From Candidatus Blastococcus massiliensis AP3 (GTDB lineage Bacteria; Actinomycetota; Actinomycetes; Mycobacteriales; Geodermatophilaceae), in the NCBI RefSeq assembly GCF_000582785.1, contig NZ_HG931175.1:295643-359642 (forward strand): a stretch of DNA of 64,000 bases, read 5' to 3'. The translations under genes and the position numbers were made by a program. Positions 4,597-47,785 of the stretch are shown here, in pieces. The stretch's first letter is position 1. The number at the start of each line of letters is the position of its first letter. Under the pieces are notes generated by a model. The model saw only the letters and a list, made by a program, of their open reading frames with translations, did not search any database and was not told the DNA's origin.

Positions 4597-5376
4597 TCAC
4601 GCCCGACCGGCGGCCCGCAGCGCGCTCGTGCAGGCCCGCTCCAGGGCCCGCTGCCGTCGTACCCGGGCCAGGAGCCCAGGGACCGGTTCGAGCTGCCGCG
4701 GGCCCGAGGAGCTGACCTCCGCGAGACGCCCGTCGGCATAGCGACCCGTCGTGGTGTGCACCGTCCACCGCTCGACGTCCGGCACGGAGAACTCCTGCCC
4801 GATGGCGACGGCCGGACCCTGCTGCGGAACAGGACCGCCGGACAGCACCAGCGGGTCGGCATCCCAGTCCGCCACCCGGGCGGTGGTCACGTGCAGTCCC
4901 CCGTCGTCGACGCCGAGCACGACGTCCATCGGCCCCTCGCGCGGACGCAGCGCACCAGCACGGACGTCCTCGAGGACGATCACGAGCCGCGGCAGGTACC
5001 ACCAGTGCTCGCGGCGGAGCATCACCGAGTCCGCCAGCGCGCGCGACGGCGGGAACTTCCGGAGCTCCTGGTCGAGCAGGTGCTCGCCGAACAGGTCGCC
5101 GTCGCCGTCCTCGATCAGCCGCGGCCGCCCACTGAGCACCATCGGCCGCCAGGCCGAGCCGGTCAGCCGGGGGTCGGAGAGGGCCAGGGCCGCCTCCCCC
5201 GCCGCGCCGACCGCGCGCGCCGTCTCCCACTGCGCCCACGGGAGGGCCACCGCGGGCCGGCCCTCCAGGACGAGCGGAACGACCCCCACCGCCGCGGGCG
5301 GTTTTCCGGCGACCGGCCATAACAGTTCGGCCACACCGGCCGAATGGACAGCCGCTCCCACTGTTGTGACGTCCAT
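4597..5376 (-). CDS. PNPOx-like (FMN-binding split barrel?) protein, function unknown
   Basis: 259 residues, cytoplasmic, no membrane segment. The first half (ALPWAQWETARAVGAAGEAALALSD is only partly quotable; key pieces are ALSDPRLTGSAWRP and LDQELRKFPPSR) resembles pyridoxamine-phosphate-oxidase-like split-barrel proteins of actinobacteria. The C-terminal part, including WTVHTTTGRYADG, has no motif I know. The ATG at 5376 is preceded by an in-frame GTG at 5379, so the start is uncertain by one codon. It is divergent from cstA, with about 60 bases between starts. Assignment to the split-barrel fold is from memory of similar proteins and is tentative. Confidence 0.6.
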   Translation of the reverse strand: MDVTTVGAAVHSAGVAELLWPVAGKPPAAVGVVPLVLEGRPAVALPWAQWETARAVGAAGEAALALSDPRLTGSAWRPMVLSGRPRLIEDGDGDLFGEHLLDQELRKFPPSRALADSVMLRREHWWYLPRLVIVLEDVRAGALRPREGPMDVVLGVDDGGLHVTTARVADWDADPLVLSGGPVPQQGPAVAIGQEFSVPDVERWTVHTTTGRYADGRLAEVSSSGPRQLEPVPGLLARVRRQRALERACTSALRAAGRA

Positions 5377-5435
5377 CACATGGTTTCTACTCGCTCGTAC
5401 AAGCGGCGAGGGGCCGCCCTGTCCTTGGAGCTGCC

Positions 5436-13881: not shown

Positions 13882-15288
13882 GTGACCCAGCACCTGATGA
13901 CCATCGACGGCGAGTCCCGGGACTCCTCGAACCGGTTCGACGTGATCAACCCGGCGACGGGAGAGCCCTTCGCGACCGCGCCGGAGGCCGACGCGGTGAT
14001 CCTGGACGACGCCATGGCCGGTGCCGAGCGGGCGTTCCGCTCCTGGAAGCTCGACGACGACGCACGCCGCGACGCGCTGCGCTCGGCCGCGGCGGCCCTC
14101 AACGACGCCATCCCCCGGATCGCTCCCCTGCTCACCCAGGAGCAGGGCAAGCCGCTGAACGAGGCCATCTTCGAGGTGGCGGGCGTCGGCATGTGGCTGC
14201 AGTACTACGCCGACCTCGAGGTGGAGCGCGAGATCCTCCAGGACGACGACGCGGCCTTCGTCGAGGTCGTGCGCCGGCCGATCGGCGTCGTGGCCGCGAT
14301 CGCCCCCTGGAACTTCCCGCTGCTGCTGTCCTCGTGGAAGATCGCCCCGGCCCTGCGCGCCGGCAACACGGTCGTCCTCAAGCCCTCCCCGTACACGCCG
14401 CTGTCCTCGCTCGCGATGGTGGAGGTCCTCAACCGGGCGCTGCCGCCCGGCGTGCTCAACGTCGTCACCGGCGGGGACGCGCTGGGCGCCGCGATGACCG
14501 CCCACCCCACGCCGCGCAAGGTCAGCTTCACCGGATCGGTCAGCGCCGGGAAGAAGGTGGCGGTGGCCTCCGCCGCGGACCTGAAGCGGGTGACCCTCGA
14601 ACTCGGCGGCAACGACCCCGCCATCGTGCTGGACGACGCCGATCCCGCCGTGATCGGCAAGCAGCTGTTCTCCGCGGCGTTCCAGAACAACGGCCAGACG
14701 TGCATCGCGGTCAAGCGCGTCTACGTCCCGGAGCGCCTGCACGACGCGGTCGTCGACGCCCTCGTCGCGGAGGCCGAGCGCGCCGTCGTCGGCGACGGCA
14801 TGGACGAGAAGACGCAGTTCGGCCCGATCAACAACCGCCCCCAGTTCGACCGGGTCAGGGCCCTGGTCGACGGCGCACTGTCGTCCGGAGCCCGGGCCGT
14901 CGCCGGAGGAACGGCCCTCGAGCGGCCGGGCTACTTCTTCGCGCCGACCATCCTCACCGGCGCCCGGGACGGGACCGCGATCGTCGACGAGGAGCAGTTC
15001 GGCCCGGCCCTGCCGGTCATCCCCTACCGGGACCTCGACGACGCCGTGGAGCGCGCCAACGCCACCAGCTTCGGGCTCGGGGCGTCGGTCTGGGCCACCG
15101 ACACCGAGCGGGGCGAGAGCGTCGCCCGGCGCCTGGACGCCGGATCCGCGTGGGTGAACACGCACGCGGCACTGGCGCCCCACCTGCCGTTCGGCGGGTT
15201 CAAGTGGAGCGGCGTCGGCGTGGAGAACGGGACGTGGGGCTACAAGAGCTTCACGGACCTGCAGGTGGTGCACCGGCGCAAGCAGTAG
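13882..15288 (+). CDS. Aldehyde dehydrogenase family protein
   Basis: 468 residues, full-length ALDH. Seen in order: APWNFPLLLSSWKIAPAL (oxyanion Asn), NAD-binding VSFTGSVSAGKK, catalytic Glu in TLELGGNDPAIV, nucleophile Cys in NNGQTCIAVKR, and EEQFGPALPV near the C-terminus. Oxidises an aldehyde to the acid with NAD(P)+. A GTG at 13882 has AAGGA 7 bases upstream. It stops with TAG, one of several ordinary TAG terminators in the window. It probably acts with the kinase-like and barrel proteins upstream; substrate unknown. Confidence 0.94.
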   Translation: MTQHLMTIDGESRDSSNRFDVINPATGEPFATAPEADAVILDDAMAGAERAFRSWKLDDDARRDALRSAAAALNDAIPRIAPLLTQEQGKPLNEAIFEVAGVGMWLQYYADLEVEREILQDDDAAFVEVVRRPIGVVAAIAPWNFPLLLSSWKIAPALRAGNTVVLKPSPYTPLSSLAMVEVLNRALPPGVLNVVTGGDALGAAMTAHPTPRKVSFTGSVSAGKKVAVASAADLKRVTLELGGNDPAIVLDDADPAVIGKQLFSAAFQNNGQTCIAVKRVYVPERLHDAVVDALVAEAERAVVGDGMDEKTQFGPINNRPQFDRVRALVDGALSSGARAVAGGTALERPGYFFAPTILTGARDGTAIVDEEQFGPALPVIPYRDLDDAVERANATSFGLGASVWATDTERGESVARRLDAGSAWVNTHAALAPHLPFGGFKWSGVGVENGTWGYKSFTDLQVVHRRKQ

Positions 15289-40890: not shown

Positions 40891-42390
40891 CTACTGCTGG
40901 GCCGGCACGCGGTCGGCCAGCAGCTGCGAGCGACGGACCTTGCCGGCGTCGTCGCGCAGCGGCTCGCCGACCAGTTCGAAGGTGCGCGGCTGCTTGTAGC
41001 GGACGAGCCGCTCGGCGAGGTGCCGGCGCAGGTCGTCGAGGTCGATGGCGTCCAGGCCCGGGGCGGGCTGCACGATCGCGTGCACCACCTGCCCCAGGTC
41101 GTCGTCGGGAAGCCCGATGACCGCACTGGAGGCGACCTGGGGGTGCTCGTCGAGGGCGGCCTCCACCTCGGCCGGGTACACGTTCGACCCGCCGACGAGG
41201 ATCATGTCGGTGCGCCGGTCGGCCAGGTAGAGGTAGCCGTCCTCGTCCATCCAGCCGACGTCGCCGAGCGACTCCCAGTTCCCGCGGGTCCGCGCCTCGG
41301 CGCCGATGTAGCGGTACGAGGGGCCCTGACCGGGAGCGCGCCGCAGGTAGACCTCGCCGACCGTGCCCGGCGGCACCTGCTCGCCGTCGGGGCCCAGGAT
41401 CGTCATCTCGCCGTAGGCGACCTTGCCGACCGAGCCGCGGTGCTCGAGCCACTCGGCCCCGCTGATGATCGTGCCGGCCTGCGCCTCGGTGCCGGCGTAG
41501 AGCTCCATGAGGACCTCGGGACCGACCCAGTCGATCCAGACCTCCTTGAGCCAGGCCGGGCACGGGGCGGCCAGGTGGTAGACGGTCTCGAGAGAGGCGA
41601 CGTCGTAGCGGGCGCGCACGTCGTCGGGCAGCCGCCAGATGCGGCTCATCATCGCCGGCACGAGGTAGAGCCAGGTGGCGCGGTGGCGCTCCACCAGCCG
41701 GAGCACCTCCTCGGCGTCGAACCGGGGCATCAGGACCAGCGCCGAGCCGTTGAGCAGCCCGGCCATGGCGCTGGTGAACGGCCCGTTGTGGTACATCGGG
41801 CCGGGCATGACCATGACGCCTCCGGGCCGGTGCCTCCACACCAGCGCACCGAACGGCTCGACGACGCCGGTCTGGCCGGACACGATCAGCTTCGGCCGGC
41901 CGGTGCTGCCCCCCGAGGTGGGCGCCTTGTAGGCCGGGGACACGACCGGCGGCAGCGGGGCGTCGTCGTCTGCCTCGGCCAGCAGCTCGTCGACGTCGGC
42001 GATCGGGCGGTCGAGCGGCAGCTCGCCGCGGGCGACGACCAGCGGCGGTGCGGCGAGCTCGACGACGCCCTGCAGCTCCAGCGGTGGCATCGCCGCGGAC
42101 ACCGGCTGCGGGACCGCCCCGGCCTTCCAGCAGGCGATGCAGGCCTCGACGAACTCGACGCTGTTGGGCAGCCCGATGGTCACCAGGTCGCCGAGGACGA
42201 CGCCGCGGGCGAGCAGTGCCCGCGCCAGCCGGTTGGTGCGGCTGTCGAGCTCGGCCCAGGTGCGGGTGGTGCCCTCGCAGACGACGGCCGTCGCGTCGCC
42301 GTGCTCCCGCGCGAGCTCACCGATGCGCACACCGATCGGCACCGGCGGCGGGTCCTCGACGGGCCCGGCGCCGGGTGCGGTCTCGGTCAT
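40891..42390 (-). CDS. AMP-dependent acyl-CoA synthetase (fatty-acid-CoA ligase)
   Basis: 499 residues, ANL superfamily. P-loop TSGGSTGRPKLIV, LYAGTEAQAGT (A5), the hinge Asp in LGDVGWMDEDGYLYLADRRT and catalytic Lys in RDDAGKVRRSQL near the C-terminus. Activates a carboxylic acid with ATP and CoA. The large gap between P-loop and A5 and the N-terminal length fit the class used in actinobacterial steroid or fatty-acid catabolism. First gene of the three-gene leftward operon ending at 38524. Confidence 0.93.
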   Translation of the reverse strand: MTETAPGAGPVEDPPPVPIGVRIGELAREHGDATAVVCEGTTRTWAELDSRTNRLARALLARGVVLGDLVTIGLPNSVEFVEACIACWKAGAVPQPVSAAMPPLELQGVVELAAPPLVVARGELPLDRPIADVDELLAEADDDAPLPPVVSPAYKAPTSGGSTGRPKLIVSGQTGVVEPFGALVWRHRPGGVMVMPGPMYHNGPFTSAMAGLLNGSALVLMPRFDAEEVLRLVERHRATWLYLVPAMMSRIWRLPDDVRARYDVASLETVYHLAAPCPAWLKEVWIDWVGPEVLMELYAGTEAQAGTIISGAEWLEHRGSVGKVAYGEMTILGPDGEQVPPGTVGEVYLRRAPGQGPSYRYIGAEARTRGNWESLGDVGWMDEDGYLYLADRRTDMILVGGSNVYPAEVEAALDEHPQVASSAVIGLPDDDLGQVVHAIVQPAPGLDAIDLDDLRRHLAERLVRYKQPRTFELVGEPLRDDAGKVRRSQLLADRVPAQQ

Positions 42391-42493
42391 CGGCTGCCTC
42401 CCCGGGGAGGACGTCCGGTGTCGACCTTCCCCGGTTTCGGACTGTAACGCAGGCCTCATCCCGCCCGCGGACGGTCGGGGAGAAGGGACGCGG

Positions 42494-42736
42494 CTAGCCG
42501 ACGAGGTGGTGCGGAACCGGCTCGGGCGCCTGGTCCTCGGAGCCGGCGCCCGACCGCGAGCGGGCCTCCAGCCACGACTGCCACTCGGCCGCGTCGATCT
42601 CGTCGTCGGAGAGCGACCGGGCCACCAGGAAGCCCACGCCGACGAGAACGGCGAGGACCAGCAGCACGACGAGGCCCACCCAGCCGTGCAGCGGCGGAAC
42701 GGTGAGGCTGCCGGGCAGCGGCGAATCGGTGGGCAT
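42494..42736 (-). CDS. Small single-pass membrane protein
   Basis: 80 residues: a short Pro/Leu start (MPTDSPLPGSLTVPPLHG), one clear transmembrane helix (VGLVVLLVLAVLVGVGFLVA), then an acidic cytosolic tail containing DDEIDAAEWQSWLEARS. I do not recognise it. ATG start. TAG stop. Divergent from the DivIVA-like gene, which starts about 210 bases away; no further gene seen in that gap. Confidence 0.68.
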   Translation of the reverse strand: MPTDSPLPGSLTVPPLHGWVGLVVLLVLAVLVGVGFLVARSLSDDEIDAAEWQSWLEARSRSGAGSEDQAPEPVPHHLVG

Positions 42737-42947
42737 GTCGACAAGGGTGCGCGCCGGTGCGGGCGGCCGCAGGTCGTACGCCGTCGTCGTCACCCGCTCG
42801 GGCGAGGCGCCCGGTCCGGCGGCCGGGAGGGCGCGGCACAGCCGCCCTCCCCGAACGGGTGAGCCACCCACCGTGATCGCAGGACTACAGGCTTTCGCCG
42901 CCGTAGCGTTCCTTCTCGTGTCGGAACTCGAGGGGAAGGCGGGTGGG

Positions 42948-43958
42948 ATGGGCGTCGAGCCGCATGTCGACGGCGAGGGCGCTCTCGTCCTGAGCGGGGA
43001 CCGGACCGCGTCGTCCCCGGACGCCCCGGCCCGCAGGCGCCCGAACGTCTCGGGTGACCTGCCCACGGTCTTCGAGACCGCGCCGATGTTCCGCCGGACC
43101 CTCGCCGGCTACGACCGCTTCCAGGTCGACTCCTACGTCCAGTGGGCCGAGGAGGAGCTGGCCACCGCCGACCGCGAGCGCGAGCACCTCACCGGCCGGT
43201 ACCTCCGGACCGTGGCCGAGCTGGCCGAGGCCCGCGAGCTGCTGTCGCACTCGTCCTCGGGTGCCGAGCTCCTGCAGCTCTCCCGCCGCCTCGGGACCCT
43301 GCTGGCCACCGCCGCCGACGAGGCCGACGGCATGCTGGCCGATGCCGACGGCGACCGGCGCACCGCCGCCGCGCAGGTCGAGCAGGCGGCCGCCGAGGCG
43401 CAGCTGATGGCGGAACGGGCCGCGGCCCAGGCGGAGCTCACCACCGCGGCGGCCGCATCCGAGGCGGCCGGCCTGCTCGCCGAGGCGCGCCGCTTCGTCG
43501 AGGAGGCCGAGGCGACCCGCACGCAGGCCCACGCGGAGGCCGAGGAGGGTCACGCGCGGATCCTGGACCTGGAGCAGCGCGCCCAGGAGCAGGCCGAGCA
43601 GGTCCGGTCCCGGGCAGCCTCCGAGGCGACCGCCGCGCGCCTGCAGGGCCGAGCCGAGGTGCTGGCGATGCTGACCACCGCCCGTGCGGAACGGCAGCGC
43701 GCGGACGCCGAGGCGGCCCGGATCCGGGAAGCCCAGGACGAGGCCGCCGCCGCGCGCCGGTCCTTCCTGCTCGCCGACGTCGCTGCCCTCGAGGACCGCC
43801 GCAACGCCCTGCGCGCCGAGATCGACGGCCTGGCCCGGCAGCTCACCGGCGCGACGGTCGACGCACCGGGTCTCCGCCTCCACGCGGTGCTCGCGTGGCT
43901 GGGCTGGCCGCCCCGGTCGGCGCCGGTCAGGAACCCGGTGTCCCTCCCGAAGCGGTGA
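42948..43958 (+). CDS. DivIVA-like coiled-coil protein
   Basis: 336 residues. An N-terminal segment FRRTLAGYDRFQVDSYVQWA resembles the DivIVA 'F.r.lrGYd..qVd.F' signature, then about 230 residues of Ala/Glu/Arg-rich heptads (for example EARRFVEEAEATRTQAHAEA) form a long coiled coil, followed by a short non-coiled tail. Likely a polar-growth or septum scaffold in the cytoplasm. ATG 42948 assumed; an in-frame GTG at 42918 is possible. Its 3' end overlaps the convergent selenoprotein gene by 32 bases. Confidence 0.8.
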   Translation: MGVEPHVDGEGALVLSGDRTASSPDAPARRRPNVSGDLPTVFETAPMFRRTLAGYDRFQVDSYVQWAEEELATADREREHLTGRYLRTVAELAEARELLSHSSSGAELLQLSRRLGTLLATAADEADGMLADADGDRRTAAAQVEQAAAEAQLMAERAAAQAELTTAAAASEAAGLLAEARRFVEEAEATRTQAHAEAEEGHARILDLEQRAQEQAEQVRSRAASEATAARLQGRAEVLAMLTTARAERQRADAEAARIREAQDEAAAARRSFLLADVAALEDRRNALRAEIDGLARQLTGATVDAPGLRLHAVLAWLGWPPRSAPVRNPVSLPKR

Positions 43959-44460
43959 CGGCGGCGATGACCGCGGCGTAGGCGCCGTCGGCCGCCGTCC
44001 GCAGCTCGTCGTCCGTCCGGTCCTGGACCGGGTGCGGCACCAGCACGAACGGGGCGGGGAACCCGAGCGCGGTGCCCTGCATCCGGGCGGCGTCGGCGAA
44101 CACCTCGCTGGCGAGGAAGACACCCACCACGCCCCGGCGCTCCAGGTCTGCGATGTCATGCACACTGCACGACGTGCAGGAGCCCTAATCGGCGAGCGCC
44201 TCGATGACCACCTCGCACTGCTCGGCGATCTCGTGCCGCAGGTCGACCGGCGCGGTCCGCGCGAACGTGGGCTTGCGGTACCGGCGCACGACCGCGCCGT
44301 CGGCGGCGAGCAGCTCCTCCAGCCGGTCCAGCACGACGTTGCCGCGGGGCTTGCTGATGTCGAGCAGCCCCACGGTGCGACCGCGCAGGGATGCGGGGCG
44401 CGGCAGGAGCTCCCGCGTCGTCGTCCGCTGCTCGCCGGTCGGGTCCAGGACGGTTCTCAT
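43927..44460 (-). CDS. UGSC-family selenoprotein with TAG-coded selenocysteine
   Basis: Read through as one frame of 177 residues. Residues 1-91 (MRTVLDPTGEQ...CEVVIEALAD) are followed by TAG at 44187-44185, then GSCTSCSVHDIADLERRG and VFLASEVFADAARMQGTALG to a TGA stop at 43927. The codon falls exactly at U of U-G-S-C, the family motif, and both halves share frame and codon use. A SECIS-like hairpin follows at once. UAG-coded selenocysteine is known from Geodermatophilus and Blastococcus. Function of UGSC proteins is unsettled; the U/C-x-x-C-x-x-C layout suggests thiol/selenol redox chemistry. The ATG overlaps the upstream thioredoxin-fusion stop (ATGA). A standard gene caller would report two fragments. 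Confidence 0.88.
44139..44184 (-). promoter_or_regulatory. Candidate bacterial SECIS element for the TAG selenocysteine codon
   Basis: Immediately after the TAG (minus strand) an extended hairpin can form. The apical stem is 8 bp with one G-U pair (44173-44166 with 44162-44155) around the loop GUG (44165-44163), whose first base is G. Below it are an AC/AUC internal loop, a 4-bp stem (44179-44176 with 44151-44148) and a 4-bp basal stem (44183-44180 with 44142-44139). The apical loop starts 20 bases after the codon, within the range expected for SelB-binding elements. Confidence 0.7.
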
Positions 44461-45854
44461 GCGCGTACCTCTCTGGTCACCGGGACGCTCCCGGTCGCAC
44501 CGGACACCCAGCCGCCGATGATGGCGCTGAACAGGCCGGCGTCGCCGCCGGCGTGCGCGACGAGCAGACCGCCGGGCCGGAACTTGGGCAGCTCGATGCC
44601 GGCGAGCCGCTCGGCGATCCCCTCGGAGATGCCGCCGACGCCCTGCAGGAGATCGTCGGACGGCAGGGTGAGCAGGGCCTCCAACTCGGCCACCAGGCGG
44701 GCTCGGTCCCACCCGGCCTCGCGGAACACCCGACCGTGCTCCGGGGAGACCACCAGGACGGCGTCGAAGGCCATCGGCAGCTTCGGGTGCCCGTTCACGC
44801 GCAGGCAGGCCGCGAACGACCGCGCCAGCGATTCCGGGGTCCGGCTGAGCTGGTCGACGACGGGCTGCACGCCCGCACCGGCGAAGAGGGTGACGGCGTC
44901 GCCGGAGACGCCGCGGTCGGCCGCGAGCGGGGCGAACGGGCTGCCCTCCTCGCGCTCGGCGAAGCAGAAGGTGAACTTGCCGGGGTTGCCGAGGGTGGCC
45001 CGGTCGATCTCGCCGGGCCGGCCACCGCCGACGTTGCGGACGACGAGCTGCAGTGCGCGGCCGATGGTCGCGTTGGCGCGGTTGCCCTGGCCGAGGGCGT
45101 TGACGCCGCTGTTCATGCCGATGCGCCGGGCGATGGGGCCGTTGACCACGACGACCGGGCCGGAGAAGTACGTCGTCGCCAGGAGGCCGTGCAGGGCGAA
45201 CTCGTCGGTGCAGGCGGCCTCGAGCGCGGCCAGCACGACCGGCAGGTGCTCGGGCAGGCAGCCGGCCATGACCGCGTTGACGGCGACCTTCTCGACCGTG
45301 CACTCGACCAGGTCCGGCGGGACGACCGCGACGACCTCCTGCGGATCGCGGGTGGTACCGCGCAGCATCCGCAGCACCCGCTCGGGGGTCGGTGGGACGA
45401 CGGGCAACCCGTCGGTCCAGCCGCGGTCGTGCATCGCCTCGTGCTCGTCCTCGAGGTCGGCGAGCTCCACCCGGCGGCTGCCCAGACCGCTGCCGCCGTA
45501 GCGCGCCTCCAGTGCGTCGACGCGGAACGGGTCGACCGACAGCGAGCCGCAGCCGGGCCGGTGCTCGGGCAGGTCGGCGCCGAGCCCGGTGCGGCCGGTC
45601 AGCTCCTCCCACTGCTCGCGGCTCCAGCCGACCACGCGCGCCGTCTCCTCGCCCCGGTCGACGCGCATCAGGGTCGGGACGGTCTCGATGCCGAGCCGGT
45701 AGGAGACCTCGAGTTCGGTGTCGTCGTGGTCGAACCAGGTGGCGTCGTCCTGGCACCACACCGCGGCACCGAGCTCGCGCAGCACCGGCTCGACGAGGAC
45801 GCACGTGGGGCAGTCCCGTTTGACGACGGCGACGAGACCGTCAGGGAGCTGCAT
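44457..45854 (-). CDS. Thioredoxin-domain fusion protein, UGSC operon partner
   Basis: 465 residues. The first roughly 85 are a thioredoxin-like domain with the active-site dithiol C15-P-T-C18 and cis-Pro in IETVPTLMRVD. The remaining 370 or so residues have no named domain: HDRGWTDGLPVVPPTPERVL, ECTVEKVAVNAVMAGCLPEH and VNGPIARRIGMNSGVNALGQ are the most distinctive stretches, and similar proteins occur beside UGSC genes. A role as the reductant or partner enzyme of the selenoprotein is inferred from fusion and ATGA coupling. The ATG at 45854 starts just before the Trx beta-strand; an upstream GTG would add a short non-conserved extension. Confidence 0.82.
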   Translation of the reverse strand: MQLPDGLVAVVKRDCPTCVLVEPVLRELGAAVWCQDDATWFDHDDTELEVSYRLGIETVPTLMRVDRGEETARVVGWSREQWEELTGRTGLGADLPEHRPGCGSLSVDPFRVDALEARYGGSGLGSRRVELADLEDEHEAMHDRGWTDGLPVVPPTPERVLRMLRGTTRDPQEVVAVVPPDLVECTVEKVAVNAVMAGCLPEHLPVVLAALEAACTDEFALHGLLATTYFSGPVVVVNGPIARRIGMNSGVNALGQGNRANATIGRALQLVVRNVGGGRPGEIDRATLGNPGKFTFCFAEREEGSPFAPLAADRGVSGDAVTLFAGAGVQPVVDQLSRTPESLARSFAACLRVNGHPKLPMAFDAVLVVSPEHGRVFREAGWDRARLVAELEALLTLPSDDLLQGVGGISEGIAERLAGIELPKFRPGGLLVAHAGGDAGLFSAIIGGWVSGATGSVPVTREVRA

Positions 45855-46012
45855 GGGCGGACCGTAACGCACGCGCACCCCACGCGAGCCGGTCGCGTCG
45901 TCCGGGAGCTGCTCCCGCGACATCCGATGCCAAGCCGCGTCAAGGCCCGCTGAACATCTGTGGACAAGCTTCTGACCTGGGCATTCATGGCGCGGACTAC
46001 GCCTCGCGGCGA

Positions 46013-47353: not shown

Positions 47354-47785
47354 GTGGCCTTGGTGGGGACGTACGAGCCCAGCACGGTGCCGTGGGTGCG
47401 CGAAGAGGTCGAGCACCTCGAGCAGACGGGGCAGGGCCTGCGCGGCCGCGCCGTCGTCCTGCTCACCACCGTCGGAGCGCGCAGCGGACTGCTGCGGAAG
47501 ACGCCGCTGATGCGGGTCACGCACGCCGGCGTCTATGCCGCCGTCGCCTCGACCAGGGGCGGGGACGCGCACCCGCACTGGTACGCCAACGCCCTCGCCC
47601 ATCCCGCCGTCGAGCTACGGGATGGCGACCAGGTGCTCGACCTGATCGCCCGGGAGGCGACCGGCGCGGAGCGCGGGCGGTGGTGGTCACGGGCCTGCAC
47701 GGTGTTCCCGTCGTACGTCGAGTACCAGCGGAGAACCAGCCGTCGTATTCCGCTGCTGCTGCTGGAACCGCCTCGAGGGGCCTAG
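47354..47785 (+). CDS. F420-dependent nitroreductase-family (Ddn-like) protein
   Basis: 143 residues. Split-barrel deazaflavin-binding pattern: GRAVVLLTTVGARSGLLRKT, PLMRVTHAGVYAAVASTRGG and HPHWYANALAHPAVELRDGD match mycobacterial Ddn/Rv3547-like proteins. Binds F420H2 and reduces quinones or other electrophiles, with proposed protection against oxidative stress. GTG start with GGAGAG 7 bases upstream. TAG stop, three bases from the stop of the convergent SpoIIE gene. Confidence 0.92.
   Translation: MALVGTYEPSTVPWVREEVEHLEQTGQGLRGRAVVLLTTVGARSGLLRKTPLMRVTHAGVYAAVASTRGGDAHPHWYANALAHPAVELRDGDQVLDLIAREATGAERGRWWSRACTVFPSYVEYQRRTSRRIPLLLLEPPRGA

Follow-up and report, generated by a model that had tools for sequence, protein, structure and literature searches.

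Does an in-frame TAG within a gene of the UGSC family end that gene or is it translated, and if so, as which amino acid? The question is posed by a minus-strand locus in the 64,000-nucleotide stretch of DNA analysed here (the window), which lies inside a Blastococcus genome of 3.87 Mb in 4 contigs that is 99.94% complete (the source genome). We put the probability that this TAG encodes selenocysteine (Sec) at roughly 0.96.

An in-frame TAG in a UGSC-family gene

The gene begins with an ATG at 44460-44458 and ends with a TGA at 43929-43927. As described in the initial annotation, the frame reaches the TAG at its 92nd codon and then reads G-S-C-T-S-C-S-V-H-D, continuing for 85 residues in total before the TGA.

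43927..44460, minus strand: predicted UGSC-family selenoprotein gene of 177 codons, followed by a TGA stop (PF24696, NF041046, read-through translation)
44185..44187, minus strand: in-frame TAG, predicted Sec, codon 92 (relatives have TAG, TGA or Cys in this column; the genome encodes a CUA tRNA-Sec)

The family identity proposed in that annotation is borne out by profile searches. The read-through product matches PF24696 at 6.5e-44 (150.5 bits against a cut-off of 25) over residues 3-169, a range that spans the TAG, and it matches NF041046, ‘UGSC family (seleno)protein’, at 2e-41 (141.4 bits, cut-off 125). The [UC]GSC motif is present as TAG-G-S-C at 44187. In our UGSC alignments A2 (16 rows) and A3 (60 rows) the motif column is invariant as Sec or Cys, and the alignment with UGA- and Cys-containing homologues agrees with the earlier placement of the TAG at the Sec/Cys position. 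The open frame extends beyond the ATG on its upstream side (44185..45804, 539 aa), which makes the 92-codon start a matter of choice; this choice is supported, since the ATG lies in an ATGA overlap with the upstream gene and orthologues share the start MRTVLDPTG (L020, L030, L093).

In-frame stops usually mark broken genes, and the TAG might accordingly be a true stop in a pseudogene, or a sequencing error, with the 3' half as debris. This explanation is extremely unlikely, given that the same TAG occupies the same column in 72 matches spread over 48 genomes (related by shared ancestry, so not independent), that coding character persists 3' of the TAG, and that an anticodon matching the TAG exists in the genome. 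In particular, the GC content per codon position in the one frame is 0.77, 0.48 and 0.96 on the 5' side and 0.74, 0.56 and 0.91 on the 3' side, coding-like in both cases, and third positions hold most of the differences from 25 UGSC orthologues both before the TAG (614 of 952) and after it (521 of 768). The in-frame TAG is confirmed as a real observation and as more than chance.

UAG also retains its ordinary role in this genome. In our rough list of window genes, some of which may be false, the stop codon is TAG in 9 of 44, TGA in 35 and TAA in none. Clear Pfam domains are found in two of the TAG-ended genes, an AMP-ligase gene at 40891-42744 and an F420H2-quinone-reductase-like gene at 47354-47785. 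The initial annotation had spoken of a recoded genetic code; that wording stands as far as the recoding of UAG as Sec goes, but it is too broad, as UAG is recoded by context and not reassigned, and ordinary genes still terminate at it.

The context would be supplied by a conserved hairpin downstream of the UAG, which we infer to be a SECIS element bound by SelB.

44155..44173, minus strand: predicted bacterial SECIS hairpin with a stem of 8 bp and GUG at the apex (pair conservation in orthologues)

The hairpin occupies nucleotides 14-32 after the first base of the UAG and its apex nucleotides 22-24, and this distance is fixed. Its six inner pairs are formed in all 24 distinct TAG sequences, with two-sided changes between subfamilies at three pairs, while the two outer pairs are formed in 15 of the 24; controls in which the pairing was slid along the TAG sequences gave 27-50% pairing. 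Among 63 distinct TGA orthologues the mean pairing of the hairpin is 0.95, compared to 3-62% in slid controls. The covariation lies mainly between subfamilies and so represents few independent events, and the hairpin is located in coding sequence. We also considered folding energy as evidence for a SECIS and dropped it; the energy is ordinary (z = -1.0, single sequence), and 24 of 200 shuffled sequences fold equally well. A hairpin is likewise located downstream of the window TAG at 15286, which is apparently an ordinary gene end.

Selenocysteine machinery and the distribution of codon and anticodon

A tRNA-Sec with a CUA anticodon, together with selA, selB and selD, had been named in the initial annotation as what to look for in the genome, and all four genes were found on contig C1. 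The matches are to TIGR00475 for selB (294.1 bits), TIGR00474 for selA (415.7 bits) and TIGR00476 for selD (391.5 bits). The tRNA-Sec gene stands beside selA and was identified by Rfam RF01852 (64.2 bits), the sole family above its gathering score there. Its anticodon loop is CUCUAAA, giving the anticodon CUA, and ARAGORN also reads the anticodon as cta.

L001 2799-2894, minus strand: CUA tRNA-Sec (Rfam tRNA-Sec; ARAGORN label tRNA-Pyl)

The CUA anticodon and the ARAGORN label, tRNA-Pyl, would both be expected if the UGSC UAG were read as pyrrolysine. We regard this as vanishingly improbable. The tRNA-Pyl identity comes from ARAGORN alone, without Rfam support, against the 64.2-bit Rfam tRNA-Sec match beside selA; PylS was not found in the source genome, where the best PylS_Cterm match reaches 21.2 bits compared to a cut-off of 178.15; and the UGSC column holds Sec or Cys in relatives. 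Geodermatophilus obscurus appears as an excluded tRNA-Pyl candidate in PMC3639795, with the footnote ‘No UAG-anticodon’. A standard tRNA finder labels the CUA tRNA-Sec as tRNA-Pyl, and gene callers that stop at UAG are expected to split such genes in two. A second ARAGORN call, a tRNA-His in the window (anticodon atg, 93 nt, 5259-5351, minus strand), was considered as a hidden tRNA-Sec and rejected; Rfam is blank at this position, the call overlaps a predicted gene at 4597-5379, and the tRNA-His assignment itself is probably false.

The source genome likely encodes a second UAG-coded selenoprotein, a formate dehydrogenase.

L173 1239-4385, minus strand, contig C1 of the source genome, TAG near 1572167: formate dehydrogenase gene with one in-frame TAG (NF041513)

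With the TAG read through, this formate dehydrogenase matches NF041513 at 1794.3 bits (cut-off 1400), whereas TIGR01591 matched only piecewise and below that model's cut-off. The TAG is found in the context ENQARI-TAG-HSSTVPGL, at what we take to be the usual Sec site of formate dehydrogenases, and a stem with the apex GGUCU is located at the same place as in the UGSC gene.

We then compared codon and anticodon across 112 Geodermatophilaceae genomes, 54 of which contain UGSC matches. Two loci were left out before counting (L012 and L025, at the same places as L126 and L129) and two duplicates were removed later (L066 at 594, equal to L009, and L071 at 618, equal to L006), leaving 95 unique matches. 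The motif codon is TAG in 72 of these, Cys in 22 (20 TGC and 2 TGT) and TGA in none, with the motif absent from the remaining one. The CUA tRNA-Sec pattern was detected in 101 of the 112 genomes, including 48 of the 48 with a TAG-coded UGSC gene. It was missing from 11 genomes, namely all nine in genera g5-g7 plus two from g9 that are incomplete. The exact UCA tRNA-Sec pattern is present in seven of the nine g5-g7 genomes and in one further genome, G058; neither pattern was found in the other two of g5-g7 (G067 and G071), which are both incomplete. In none of the three UGSC matches from g5 and g7 is the motif codon TAG. Codon and anticodon switch in step, as predicted for a UAG-coded Sec. As only UCA was found in g5-g7, the move is placed inside Geodermatophilaceae, and these data support the view that in most of the family the Sec codon changed from UGA to UAG together with the tRNA anticodon. 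An order-wide draw of 397 genomes contained the CUA pattern in 76, of which 75 are Geodermatophilaceae. The sole CUA pattern outside the family (G610:C194:821-847) comes from a genome of another family that is 82% complete, and may represent either contamination or a second lineage with UAG-coded Sec.

Outside the family the UGSC codon is predominantly TGA. A draw of 396 genomes across the phylum yielded 45 UGSC matches, which contained one TGA in 34 cases, no stop in 10 and a TAG in a single case, the source genome; for 27 of 29 phylum-survey loci that could be matched again, the motif itself holds TGA in 21, Cys in 4 and is not readable in 2. We also scanned named genomes for the partner gene described below; out of 580 confirmed loci, the best 80 were retained. 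The UGSC codon is readable in 75 of these best 80, as TGA in 71 and TAG in 4, the latter from Blastococcus sp. TML/M2B, Blastococcus mobilis, Geodermatophilus poikilotrophus and Geodermatophilus obscurus. The other loci among the best 80 come from records titled Acidimicrobiia, Myxococcota, Alpha- and Gammaproteobacteria, Acidobacteria, Chloroflexi, Gemmatimonadota and others; the loci from outside Geodermatophilaceae are mostly metagenome-assembled, and their titles are only as reliable as the records.

These counts bear on a selenium-free reading of the UAG as an amino acid other than Sec, such as Cys, or through near-cognate decoding. The 22 Cys codons among the 95 family matches would be in keeping with such a reading. 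Against it stand the dedicated tRNA-Sec with its matching anticodon, the full set of sel genes, and the lack of any Cys among the 75 readable UGSC codons beside a thioredoxin-type partner in the best 80 of 580 named loci, and we consider it very unlikely. For a UAG that encodes Sec, the CUA tRNA-Sec would be charged with Ser, SelA would convert the Ser to Sec using selenophosphate from SelD, and SelB would deliver the Sec-tRNA to the UGSC UAG because the hairpin sits just downstream, while UAG elsewhere would terminate. From the genes and their conservation we infer that Sec is actually inserted at this UAG in the source strain.

The partner gene and the possible function of the UGSC protein

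Judged by its sequence, the UGSC product is a Blastococcus-type member of the UGSC selenoprotein family, whose gene overlaps that of a thioredoxin-domain partner; the stop of the partner gene and the UGSC start share an ATGA.

44457..45923, minus strand: partner gene, 488 aa, thioredoxin-like N-terminus with CPTC plus an unnamed domain of ~350 aa (TIGR01068, PF13098, fold match)
45591..45842, minus strand: thioredoxin-like domain of the partner, residues 28-111 (alignment, fold match)

The partner N-terminus matches the TIGR01068 thioredoxin model at 2.5e-4 and PF13098 at 5.3e-4, both under the curated cut-offs, and the domain has a thioredoxin fold match with a Z score of 8.6 and an rmsd of 2.6 over 80 aligned residues. 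Cys38 and Cys41 are invariant across 43 aligned partners. The ~350-aa domain harbors the motif GWTDGLPVVPPT and showed no Pfam match in the four proteins scanned and no NCBIfam match in the three scanned. A likeness of the partner to a fumarate hydratase subunit, the best Foldseek row, was rejected as too weak (TM 0.21/0.30), and only the thioredoxin domain was placed. Searches of solved structures with the UGSC (A2) and partner (A1) profiles gave nothing convincing, the best E values being 0.0062 (an ATP synthase chain) and 0.73, respectively.

The partner motif, as a strict pattern, is present within the fetched UGSC flanks in 84 of 97 rows, or 82 of the 95 unique family matches, and L097, one of the 13 misses, has the partner but with a deviating form of the motif. 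A thioredoxin domain would not fit into the frame that precedes the motif in several other subfamilies. In one locus (L115, G108:C16, minus strand) a Cys-containing UGSC protein and the GWSDGLP partner domain are fused in one open frame. Clustering of neighbouring frames in the best 80 of 580 named loci revealed selB-like clusters in 8 and selA-like clusters in 6, with one representative of each confirmed. This clustering was crude, as it included all frames, and its second and third largest clusters, apparently antisense or shifted frames of the partner, were ignored.

L230 2159-3832 and L233 2484-3875, named genomes: selB and selA near the UGSC/partner pair

The partner, the single natural fusion and the neighbouring sel genes in some genomes provide a handle on the possible function of UGSC proteins. 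Acyl-CoA ligase and acyl-CoA dehydrogenase genes are also located near the UGSC gene in the window; for the UGSC substrate they are only a hint.

The predicted UGSC model (mean pLDDT 91.7) consists of five strands alternating with five helices, with the Sec placed right after the third strand. A thioredoxin-fold oxidoreductase has been suggested for the UGSC protein in PMC2398784, and its UxxC motif would suit such an enzyme. We find it unlikely that the UGSC protein itself has this fold. The strands and helices of the model alternate, and the Foldseek and VIA-align 2 matches listed were generic ones to Rossmann, receiver and flavodoxin-like chains (138 residues aligned with an rmsd of 4.7 for the best, at Z 11.1), without a thioredoxin among them, an absence that by itself carries no weight; moreover, the thioredoxin domain belongs to the product of the partner gene. 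GrdB/PrdB (PF07355) offers a different comparison. Like UGSC, these proteins have a Sec followed by G-[ST]-x-T-x-C and then LER-x-G-[IV], and in the seven Actinomycetota members read (L262-L268) a TGA directly follows the Pfam domain. UGSC proteins are, in contrast, under half as long and have another partner gene. The UGSC protein (P0001) has no PF07355 match at E <= 0.001, nor was one found in its own genome, and hhalign of UGSC against GRDB gave E values of 4e-4 and 8e-4 but probabilities of only 34% and 25% over 53 columns. We tentatively propose, at somewhat under even odds, that the UGSC Sec may act as nucleophile in a selenol/thiol reductase with some likeness to glycine reductase protein B, and that the CPTC of the partner would re-reduce it.

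A second tRNA-Sec, mobile sec genes and relation to known systems

The Geodermatophilus-group genome G058, which has a CUA tRNA-Sec (on contig C11) and a TAG-coded UGSC gene, contains a second tRNA-Sec with the anticodon UCA (81.8 bits, C17:1173-1263).

L032 1169-2154 (contig C17 of G058): UCA tRNA-Sec and AhpD/CMD-like gene with in-frame TGA (CxxU)

The AhpD/CMD-like frame is ~0.3 kb from the UCA tRNA-Sec and comprises 192 codons with the sequence NRCFY-TGA-MESHAE; when the TGA is read through, the protein matches PF02627 at 1.9e-6. A hairpin follows the TGA, with its apex 20-22 nt past the first base, near the usual place. The island that contains these genes has ~61% GC, compared to 72% at 8-20 kb of C17, and is flanked on both sides by transposase genes (PF01609; PF01548 plus integrase-core matches). 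We considered whether the UCA tRNA stems from contamination, as it is close to the contig end, occurs in one such genome only and lies in a stretch of differing GC. Yet C17 is 69 kb long, with 72% GC at 8-20 kb and mostly 69-82% per kilobase beyond 6 kb; 2.7 kb of it matches the same-genus genome G053 at 79-92%, although the 24 further genomes searched gave short matches only; and a sequence of 50 bases next to the island on its right was found again in several genomes of the genus. The contig may also be an assembly chimera.

No SelA or SelB was seen on C17 in a short motif scan, and therefore both tRNAs would depend on the SelA and SelB of the host. It is conceivable, with chances slightly below one half, that the G058 cell uses two Sec codons, UAG and UGA, with shared SelA and SelB. 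If true, this would be a natural test of whether the codon or the SECIS specifies Sec. No homologue of the AhpD-like protein was found in viral contigs, and its homologues on plasmids (333 records) all have <60% identity. Plasmids of Arthrobacter sp. YA7-1 (L283) and Tsukamurella tyrosinosolvens (L284) carry selB, selA, a tRNA-Sec-like match, selD and formate dehydrogenase together, and the Arthrobacter plasmid was typed as conjugative. Sec genes are thus mobile in such bacteria.

UAG-coded Sec in UGSC proteins of Geodermatophilaceae is already reported. The initial annotation had pointed to a 2016 report by Mukai and colleagues for Geodermatophilus and Blastococcus, and PMC5330540 states as much: it credits that work with the UAG-coded formate dehydrogenase and UGSC selenoproteins of the family and adds an AhpC with UAG in Blastococcus saxobsidens DD2 and the CUA tRNA-Sec in three genomes. 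The use of UAG is mentioned also in PMC10778597 and PMC8124441. UGSC proteins are counted as selenoproteins in PMC13188914 and PMC9312934, and a 2026 review among these two describes the functions of such selenoproteins as largely uncharacterized. Within the literature searched, three of our results appear new: the mapping of the apparent UCA-to-CUA switch inside Geodermatophilaceae; the conserved partner gene of UGSC, with its predicted thioredoxin domain in the Blastococcus-type subfamily; and the presence in G058 of both CUA and UCA tRNA-Sec genes, with a candidate UGA selenoprotein gene next to the UCA one. In a search that covered mainly open-access papers, we found no account in print of a single genome with two tRNA-Sec genes whose anticodons differ.

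The locus thus closely resembles the Geodermatophilus/Blastococcus system of Mukai 2016 as given in PMC5330540, with the same CUA tRNA-Sec, UAG at the Sec sites of formate dehydrogenase and UGSC, and the same bacterial family. It differs in that another genome is concerned, in the survey of 112 genomes, and in the UCA-to-CUA boundary set inside the family. With the UGSC family at large (PF24696/NF041046) the protein shares a near full-length profile match and the [UC]GSC motif, whereas in the source genome UAG, instead of UGA, would code for the Sec.
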